NCBI RefSeq assembly: GCF_002770725.1
Contig: NZ_NQVN01000007.1
Coordinates: 124,001-188,000, forward strand
Length of the DNA: 64,000 bases
Source of the DNA: Pleomorphomonas carboxyditropha
Lineage (GTDB): Bacteria > Pseudomonadota > Alphaproteobacteria > Rhizobiales > Pleomorphomonadaceae
Reading direction: 5' to 3'
Shown: in pieces, positions 5,376-53,889 of the stretch
Position numbering within the stretch: the first letter of the stretch is position 1
How the letters are laid out: every line of letters begins with the position of its first letter
The notes under the pieces: model-generated
The model's input: only the letters and a program-made list of their open reading frames with translations
The model's database searches: none
What the model was told of the DNA's origin: nothing
Made by a program: the position numbers and the translations under genes

Positions 5376-5493
5376 CGCCAACGCGGAAGGCAACGAAGAA
5401 ACGAAGCTGCCAAAGGCAGCTTCCGGCACCAAGCGCCAAAGAAAAAGCGGCCGCCGATGGCGACCGCTTCCTCGAGTATTTTGCCCTTGCCGA

Positions 5494-19081: not shown

Positions 19082-19090
19082 CCTAAATGC

Positions 19091-19118
19091 GGCGGTTTAA
19101 GGGGGCGTAAAGGATAAC
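19091..19118. repeat. 28-bp direct repeat, left copy, with near-consensus CtrA box
   Basis: This sequence recurs at 19268-19295 with 27 of 28 bases identical. It contains TTAA-N7-TAAA at 19097-19111, one base off the CtrA consensus TTAA-N7-TTAA. It begins 10 bp upstream of the mrcA start at 19081, so bound CtrA could act on mrcA. Confidence 0.75.
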
Positions 19119-19140
19119 ACTGGGCATCCATATCTCGTGA

Positions 19141-19257
19141 GGCGGCTTTCGGCGCCAAGCGGCGCCGCGCGAAGCGGGCCTGACGTGGCGAGCATCGCCC
19201 CGTCAGGCACAAAGCGGAGCGGAAGCCAAGGGCGGGATGCCCGCCGGCGACTGAGGC
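19141..19257. repeat. Structured intergenic repeat, copy 1
   Basis: A 117-bp element matching 53701-53814. The opening block (19141-19178) is identical at about 36 of 38 positions. It includes a hairpin GGCGCC-AAGC-GGCGCC. A variable hairpin follows: GCCTGACG pairs with CGTCAGGC, with an inner GGCGA/TCGCC stem. Next come a conserved AAAGCGGAGCG...AAGCCAAGGGC block and a conserved end GCCCGCCGGCGACTGAGGC. It shows no coding signature and sits between mrcA and the cob riboswitch. The same order of conserved and variable blocks in both copies indicates a dispersed element family. Confidence 0.8.
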
Positions 19258-19267
19258 GACCGAAAGT

Positions 19268-19295
19268 GGCGGTTTAAGGGGGCGTTAAGGATAAC
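19268..19295. repeat. 28-bp direct repeat, right copy
   Basis: Right-hand copy of the 19091-19118 repeat (27/28 identical). The single difference turns TAAA into TTAA, completing a perfect CtrA-type box. The two copies bracket the 117-bp structured element with unequal spacers of 22 and 10 bp. Confidence 0.75.
19274..19288. promoter_or_regulatory. Perfect CtrA-type box TTAA-N7-TTAA
   Basis: TTAAGGGGGCGTTAA matches the alphaproteobacterial CtrA consensus TTAA-N7-TTAA exactly. It lies about 190 bp upstream of mrcA on one side and about 23 bp upstream of a TTGACT that may be the cob operon -35 on the other. Which gene it controls cannot be read from position alone. Confidence 0.6.
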
Positions 19296-19310: not shown

Positions 19311-19339
19311 TTGACTTTACCTCGCAACAAGCCGCAAAT
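19311..19339 (+). promoter_or_regulatory. Weak candidate promoter for the cob operon
   Basis: TTGACT at 19311-19316 and GCAAAT at 19334-19339 are 17 bases apart and would start transcription just before the cobalamin riboswitch. The -35 is good and the -10 is poor. Position supports it more than sequence does. Confidence 0.3.
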
Positions 19340-19349
19340 GGCCGGGCGC

Positions 19350-19522
19350 GACGGTCCCTCTTCCCTGAGGAGGGCGAAAAGGGAACGCGGAATCGGGCAA
19401 CTCCCGAAAGCCGCGGCTGCCCCCGCAACTGTGAGCGGCGAGCCGGATGCTGAGCGTGCCACTGGTCGGAAGACCGGGAAGGCCGTATCCGGCGACGAAC
19501 CGCGAGCCAGGAGACCTACCGC
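19350..19522 (+). promoter_or_regulatory. Cobalamin (AdoCbl) riboswitch
   Basis: The conserved landmarks appear in order: GGTCCC near 19353; GGGAACGCGG near 19381; GCCGCGGCTGCCCCCGCAAC then TGTGAGCGG (19410-19438); GCCACTG (19458-19464); CGGAAGACCGGGAAGGCC; and the B12 box GAGCCAGGAGACCT at 19504-19517. It precedes the DUF1636-cobW-cobN operon, so adenosylcobalamin binding should lower expression of cobalamin synthesis. About 105 bases separate the B12 box from the DUF1636 start. In that stretch GGGGC can pair with GCCCC across the ribosome site and ATG of a 20-codon frame, which would fit translational control. Confidence 0.93.
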
Positions 19523-19569
19523 CGCGCACGGATGTCGGGACCGCCGGTGGGGCGGGAAAGGACCTTATC

Positions 19570-53676: not shown

Positions 53677-53689
53677 ACCTGAAGGGCTG

Positions 53690-53708
53690 AAGCCGCCTTG
53701 GGCGGCTT
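53690..53708 (+). repeat. Hairpin at the entry of structured repeat copy 2
   Basis: AAGCCGCC (53690-53697), TTG, GGCGGCTT (53701-53708): a perfect 8-bp stem with a 3-base loop, 14 bp after the sucD stop. The right arm is the first conserved block of the structured repeat. In copy 1 the matching left arm is absent. It may weaken read-through from sucD to sucA. Confidence 0.6.
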
Positions 53709-53814
53709 CCGGCGCCAAGCGGCGCCGCGCGCAGCGGGTCTTTCGGGGCTTCGTCCCGAAAGACGGAAAGCGGAGCGAAAAGCCAAGGGCCGGAGGCCCG
53801 CCGGCGACTGAGGC
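53701..53814. repeat. Structured intergenic repeat, copy 2
   Basis: A 114-bp element matching 19141-19257. The conserved opening block and conserved end GCCCGCCGGCGACTGAGGC are nearly identical. The middle hairpin has a different sequence, GTCTTTCGGG pairing with CCCGAAAGAC around a 7-base loop, but keeps the pairing. The small 3' hairpin is GGGCC-GGA-GGCCC here versus GGGC-GGGAT-GCCC in copy 1. It lies between sucD and sucA, in the same orientation as copy 1 relative to the window. Confidence 0.8.
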
Positions 53815-53889
53815 AGAAAAAACACCCACGGCGAAGCGATCCTGCTGTCGCCGGAACGCGAGGACGGAGCGGACGGCTCCGAAACGCAC

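Follow-up and report, generated by a model that had tools for sequence, protein, structure and literature searches.

A modular, hairpin-rich intergenic repeat of Pleomorphomonas with a sequence-variable inner hairpin

The window, by which we mean the whole 64,000-nt stretch of the Pleomorphomonas carboxyditropha genome that was analysed (contig NZ_NQVN01000007.1, positions 124,001 to 188,000), contains two structured stretches of similar layout in two intergenic gaps. The first lies between an mrcA-like penicillin-binding protein gene (PF00912 and PF00905) and a cobalamin riboswitch at 19335–19537, with cobW also among the Pfam neighbours, and the second lies between sucD and sucA, where the neighbours are succinyl-CoA ligase subunits and 2-oxoglutarate dehydrogenase E1. 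These Pfam and Rfam matches support the setting given in the first-pass annotation, which had been made from the letters of the DNA and had placed one copy beside mrcA and the cob riboswitch and the other among the suc genes. The riboswitch was the only match in an Rfam search of the window, and nothing matched either of the two repeat copies.

Both copies lie on the forward strand and are of a long form. Copy 1 (19126–19257; covariance model R1, E 9.5e-23) has a broken hairpin 1 and is otherwise intact, and copy 2 (53686–53814; R1, E 1.1e-25) has all of its hairpins intact. Hairpin 1 of copy 2, GAAGCCGCC/GGCGGCTTC at 53689–53709, begins 12 bp after the sucD stop and is followed by hairpin 2 at 53710–53727, both being evident from sequence and folding; the same hairpin 2, CGGCGCC-AAGC-GGCGCCG, occupies 19150–19167 in copy 1, where it was read from the sequence and its pairing counted in the alignment. 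Hairpin 3, the variable module, is enclosed by short direct repeats recognised in the sequence, namely GCGAAGCG (19169–19176) before it and GCGGAGCG (19214–19221) after it in copy 1, and GCGCAGCG (53729–53736) and again GCGGAGCG (53770–53777) in copy 2. It covers 19178–19208 in copy 1, with the outer stem GCCTGACG/CGTCAGGC (sequence, alignment, and folding), and 53738–53764 in copy 2, with the stem GTCTTTCGGG/CCCGAAAGAC (sequence and alignment). Hairpin 4 reads GGGC-GGGAT-GCCC at 19230–19242 and GGGCC-GGA-GGCCC at 53787–53799, the latter also recovered by folding, and each copy closes with the tail GCCGGCGACTGAGGC (19243–19257 and 53800–53814), a strongly conserved block in alignment A2. RNA folding of the window copies beats most shuffles on either strand (z −1.7 to −2.8).

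The first-pass annotation had reported an element at 19141–19257 that recurs at 53701–53814; both were located at these positions, both match covariance models R1 and R2, and the stems it quoted, the paired hairpin 4 in both copies and the near-identity of the end blocks were confirmed in the sequence. The ends it gave for the unit hold, but the start does not, as copy 2 begins at 53689 with the 5′ hairpin that is broken in copy 1. It had also stated that the central hairpin differs completely between the copies. A difference with pairing kept is indeed present, but it is not complete: the hairpins can be aligned and have a C-G core of the stem in common, and other copies carry hairpin 3 forms intermediate between those of copy 1 and copy 2. 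Elsewhere in the window, a possible remnant at 5400–5464 comprises hairpin 1 and part of hairpin 2 (model match E 0.028).

The description of the element as two-copy is correct for the window but not for the genome. A blastn search with 19141–19257 recovered at least 52 pieces in the P. carboxyditropha genome (the query itself and 51 others; 5.88 Mb in 80 contigs), and R1, which was built from 52 long Pleomorphomonas copies that include both window copies (alignment A2), gave at least 44 matches there and matched 13 of the 14 Pleomorphomonas genomes, P. carboxyditropha included; the copy numbers are lower bounds, the genome searches scoring part of their candidates. The search of the genome and its relatives that had been proposed as a check thus yielded further copies in both. 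Across 40 genomes, again including that of P. carboxyditropha, blastn matched 15: the 14 Pleomorphomonas genomes and one from a different genus in the same family (E 4.4e-4), and an exact 29-base core was found in 17 stretches, 15 of them in Pleomorphomonas records and two in MAGs labelled Proteobacteria only. Plasmid spread was rejected as an explanation, copy 1 having no match among 72,556 plasmid records. Copies are often grouped, with more than one unit in 44 of 126 clusters and a maximum of four. An unrelated second palindromic repeat of about 96–125 bp, MITE-like with an AT-rich centre and the ends CTGCCCGAGGTCCT / AGGACCTCGGGCAG, was seen near copies of the main repeat at five sites in the P. 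carboxyditropha genome (L005, L006, L025, L035, and L042; e.g., L035:644-757) in a scan that covered only the loci fetched for the main repeat.

From 84 extracted units we aligned 52 long ones (variable part 45–60 nt) and 27 short ones, leaving out five. The alignments show end modules that stay constant and, between them, an inner module that may be missing. The order is hairpin 1, hairpin 2, CGC-GNA-GC, hairpin 3, GC-GNA-GCG, hairpin 4 (GGGCC-GGA-GGCCC), and the tail, making a four-hairpin unit of about 88 or 128 bp. Short copies are without hairpin 3 and carry a single GCGNAGCG-like block in place of the two seen in long copies, which is compatible with loss between direct repeats or with insertion accompanied by duplication; the predicted fold of short copies mixed alternative pairings and was set aside. 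A set of 195 model matches (103 and 92) was reduced to 184 distinct rows, decayed copies included. Among 107 long rows, GCGNAGCG stands on either side of hairpin 3 in 69, the outer stem of hairpin 3 comes in 37 distinct versions (some separated by alignment gaps only), and the outer stem of copy 1 recurs in 12. The commonest class of hairpin 3, with the pattern GTCTTTCG..CGAAAGAC, has 10 sites in the P. carboxyditropha genome, all 10 of which fall within listed repeat copies, and a free-standing hairpin 3 in this genome was accordingly rejected. Compared with six other copies of the same genome, copy 2 carries hairpin 3 as an exact reverse complement, and in the other three of the ten sites the loop orientation is usual as well. 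This exact inversion points to hairpin events or conversion at the DNA level, and the orientation is as expected from DNA hairpin inversion.

Outside Pleomorphomonas the repeat is sparse. Of 150 genomes of the order, R1 matched two, that of P. carboxyditropha and G133 of another family (E 3.6e-12), whose copies have the Pleomorphomonas layout with different sequences. A blastn search with a G133 copy matched 18 of the 59 genomes in that genus, G133 itself being one of the 18; judging from a sequence match, this second genus is probably Methylobacterium, and its element matches one large Methylobacterium bullatum record in which the DNA neighbouring that element had no match. Twenty of 30 second-genus loci were aligned (A4), partial or degenerate ones being dropped by eye, and the covariance model R2, built from A4 alone and thus from no Pleomorphomonas sequence, also detects the window copies (53689–53814, E 5.4e-14; 19130–19257, E 8.6e-10). 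R2 matched 16 of 397 order genomes in three of 141 genera, consisting of 12 of the 14 Pleomorphomonas genomes, three of the second genus (two of which had supplied A4 rows) and one of a third genus in a further family, where the layout is again kept with different sequences; an exact pattern search matched 12 of the 397. Such patchy spread among order genomes points to transfer or repeated loss. At four loci of the second and third genera (L305, L307, L316, and L320) a short spacer separates the repeat from a further hairpin (ATCGCT..AGCGAT or similar) behind it, and some copies in these genera have a hairpin CAATCGGG..CCCGATTG in place of hairpin 1.

Pairing is kept across this sequence variation to an extent beyond that of shuffled alignments. 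In A2 (52 sequences, 36 pairs), 96.5% of cells are paired compared with 92.2% in shuffles, and two-sided changes occur at 13 of the 36 pairs (71 cells), a value that none of 500 shuffles reached, although the structure was drawn on A2 itself, which favours it, and changes are common to related copies; with the structure slid along the alignment, at most 46% of cells are paired. Watson–Crick pairing of hairpin 3 in the 107 long rows is 0.941, versus 0.76 after re-dealing of the arms (maximum 0.797 of 500). In A4, 94.9% of cells are paired versus 87.2% in shuffles, and two-sided changes occur at 17 of 38 pairs, which no shuffle of 500 equalled, with hairpin 3 giving 9 of 12. Covariance models and a shuffle-based covariation test on many copies, along the lines of the check that had been proposed, bear out the pairing, and the earlier suggestion of a repeat family with swappable stem modules agrees with the many copies, the excess of two-sided changes over shuffles, and the hairpin 3 differences at orthologous sites.

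We then considered placement relative to genes, which were called by a simple codon-usage script. No cluster overlapped a called gene in a first set of 58, and one did so in a larger set of 126 that contains the first. Of the 55 first-set clusters flanked by two neighbours, 39 are no more than 40 bp from the 3′ end of a gene (null 16.9 ± 2.8); of the 109 clusters of the larger set with called genes on either side, 78 do so, compared with 34.4 ± 3.9 under random placement and a maximum of 50 in 5000 simulations, these counts being inflated because they include orthologous clusters that are not independent. Only 11 clusters of the larger set lie within 40 bp of a gene 5′ end (null 28.8). Among the 94 clusters with a 3′-end neighbour, 56 sit within 15 bp of that end, and of the 78 near-3′-end clusters, 49 have their tail toward the stop and 29 their hairpin 1. 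For the P. carboxyditropha genome alone, the count from the listing is 17 of 25 clusters within the 40-bp limit. Copy 1 breaks this placement rule and sits between divergent genes. The second genus shows no such excess at 40 bp (2 of 20 clusters, null 3.4), and 13 of its 20 clusters lie within 60 bp versus 5.1 ± 1.7 expected, a threshold chosen post hoc. The right flanks of the repeat are A-rich (51–70% A over 10 bases). A scan of the two window copies for intrinsic terminators found none at copy 1 and two sites at copy 2, both on the minus strand, and neither copy shows a GC-rich stem and following T run oriented with the gene upstream of it.

Comparison of orthologous positions reveals both persistence and variation. 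Flanks were compared with repeat units masked, because neighbouring units could yield false matches, and with named loci left out. The resulting table, which covers the copies fetched from each genome and in which the correspondence of units is uncertain in tandems, has 23 sites occupied in at least two of 12 genomes, four of them in eight genomes. Hairpin 3 sequence or the long/short state differs at 21 of the 23 shared sites and is invariant at two, as counted from the listing. At one shared site, five genomes have the outer stem GCCTGACG/CGTCAGGC, one has GCCTTTCG/CGAAAGGC, and two have a stem of the GTCCTTCG type.

The gaps that hold the window copies also vary among relatives. P. carboxyditropha has the long form in the mrcA–cob gap, G004 and G013 have a short or degenerate element there, G003 retains a remnant, and seven of 11 relatives lack the element; the G008 sequence ends too early for a cut-out, and its matches overlap as at empty sites. 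Around copy 1 are two 33-bp direct repeats on the forward strand, the left (19086–19118) 91% identical to the right (19263–19295), at distances of 7 bp and 5 bp from the model match. Their core of about 27 bp is single at the empty sites of seven relatives and doubled around the element in P. carboxyditropha, G004, and G013. The motif GGCGGTTTAAGGGGGCGTAAAGGAT within these two stretches, between mrcA and the cobalamin riboswitch, is retained in the relatives examined, singly where the repeat is absent, and is possibly a promoter or regulator site. In the sucD–sucA gap, none of 13 relatives has an intact repeat, and degenerate remnants were recognised by eye in G010 and G012. A strongly folding stretch is present there in 10 of the 13 (z −2.3 or lower), and folding is weak in G001, G003, and G007 (z −1.2, −0.3, and −0.6), with a conserved 3′ hairpin raising most of these values. 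A conserved leader before sucA at 53863–53880 reads GGAGCGGACGGCTCC in 13 of 14 sequences, with a variant in G006, and had no Rfam match.

Small composite intergenic repeats, including BIME, RIME, BOX, and Bru-RS, are already known as a kind, and ERIC is another. BOX of Streptococcus pneumoniae (boxA-boxB-boxC) likewise has two end modules and an optional inner module, is interspersed and forms predicted stem-loops, and the number of its inner modules varies between strains at one site (PMC3049150). Compared by layout, BOX is the nearest in architecture; however, it belongs to another phylum, and its boxB is an alignable module in tandem, whereas the inner hairpin of the Pleomorphomonas repeat varies in sequence with pairing kept. 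The RIME, Sm-repeats, and A, B, and C palindromes of Sinorhizobium are rhizobial intergenic repeats described as alike in primary sequence and secondary structure (PMC2573895); they resemble our repeat by description in being intergenic in rhizobial genomes. Among the order genomes sampled, R1 matches just 2 of 150 and R2 just 16 of 397. REP/BIME elements with RAYT and GTAG-/CGTC-tagged REPs are similarly palindromic, intergenic, and often grouped, with complementary stem changes reported for tagged REPs (PMC3733652), and another study gives distances that place many REPs close behind stop codons (PMC12306157). In contrast to REPs, the Pleomorphomonas unit is longer, has four hairpins, and ends without GTAG or CGTC: inspection of the 52-copy alignment found no unpaired tag of this type, the ends being GAAGCCGC and CTGAGGC, and the P. 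carboxyditropha genome has no match to PF01797, the Y1 (RAYT-type) transposase. In line with the earlier remark that the element was not recognised as a named family, five repeat loci searched against Rfam at E up to 1 left the element unmatched, we found no published account of it in the literature searched, which lay largely outside the subscription journals, and passages from PMC2680597, PMC2573895, PMC4161386, PMC3733652, PMC3049150, PMC2267715, and PMC12306157 do not describe it.

The strong covariation found in both genera and the long-lived orthologous sites would fit a trans-acting or cis-regulatory RNA family under selection for its fold, the two-sided changes being its footprint, but we consider this improbable. 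Selection on RNA would predict more G-U than A-C departures on the transcribed strand, with the bias reversing when gene direction does. Overall G-U does exceed A-C (135:95 in Pleomorphomonas and 24:14 in the second genus), but the departures are even once split by neighbour direction, at 34:32 where both neighbours run along the element and 23:25 where both run against it, with ratios of 32:20 for clusters between divergent genes and 13:10 for those between convergent ones. Single helices scatter (in the "against" group, 1:10 for hairpin 3 and 10:2 for hairpin 4), and the test is weak because rows have common ancestry and include decayed copies; the departures give no clear support to selection at the RNA level. 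An RNA regulator read from covariation alone was dropped after this strand test. The repeat also stands in either orientation (36 and 45 clusters), no sigma-70-like site was found at either window copy, Rfam offers no match, and the mrcA–cob site lacks the element in at least seven of 11 relatives. Of the earlier proposal of selection on structure, the kept pairing is supported, but the even departures and the inverted hairpin 3 leave RNA without clear support as the target of selection.

The even departures and the inversion would also be expected of a selfish palindromic element without host function, in which templated intrastrand repair and conversion keep the arms complementary and the bias toward stop codons reflects least harm there; the insert between direct repeats, the long and short states at one site, and the relatives with empty sites fit it too. 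We regard this as a close rival to the favoured explanation, albeit a rather unlikely one: occupied sites last in up to eight of the 12 genomes compared, the repeat in the suc gap occupies the place of other folding stretches in relatives, and the excess immediately after stops, with 56 of 94 clusters no more than 15 bp away, goes beyond what mere gene avoidance requires. A mobilised MITE-like element with a long target-site duplication of about 27 bp, most of which have since decayed, would explain the doubled core at mrcA–cob and its almost flush position around copy 1, but appears decidedly improbable. A clear flanking duplication was found in only one of 58 clusters, the others resembling controls, a count that speaks against target duplication across the family; the repeat ends are not mutual inverted repeats, inspection of A2 finding no terminal inverted repeats, and duplication of a local promoter motif would give the same picture. 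A RAYT partner found no support, since PF01797 is present in only three of 14 genus genomes and the repeat in 13 (R1), and at the four Y1 loci R1 found no convincing copy beside the transposase gene (best E 0.13).

Taken together, both window stretches very probably belong to a family of non-autonomous intergenic repeats of the REP/BIME/RIME/BOX kind, modular in build and rich in hairpins. The near-constant end blocks, one comprising hairpins 1 and 2 and the other hairpin 4 and the tail, frame an optional hairpin 3 of variable sequence between short direct repeats. Hairpin 3 may turn over by swaps between copies or by loss between those repeats, with its pairing renewed at least partly at the DNA level. 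Copies may be tolerated, and sometimes retained, just 3′ of genes as transcript-end or intercistronic stem-loops. E. coli REP elements slow transcript decay, and stem-loops 3′ of Pleomorphomonas genes would, in the same way, slow decay or influence ribosome release. An effect of E. coli REPs on translation is reported for those within 15 bp of the stop (PMC12306157). As a whole, this explanation, which joins a REP/BIME/BOX-like repeat, stem-loops behind stop codons, and hairpin 3 exchange, seems likely to us, and for the transcript-end role on its own we remain tentative, leaning slightly against it.

These results add a repeat family for which no earlier description was found in the literature searched, and they caution against equating strong covariation in dispersed repeats with a functional RNA. 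Orthologous sites with differing hairpins across species also provide comparisons in which one could directly measure what a stem-loop does behind a gene. A broader possibility, which we hold to be somewhat doubtful, is that the copies form a superfamily across three families of one order, in which the hairpin cassette is swapped in place at fixed, long-lived intergenic sites and the covariation of its arms stems largely from templated correction or conversion at the DNA level rather than from RNA selection. If true, this would be a natural case in which the usual covariation proof of RNA function fails, and one with a built-in test in the G-U versus A-C departures by strand.
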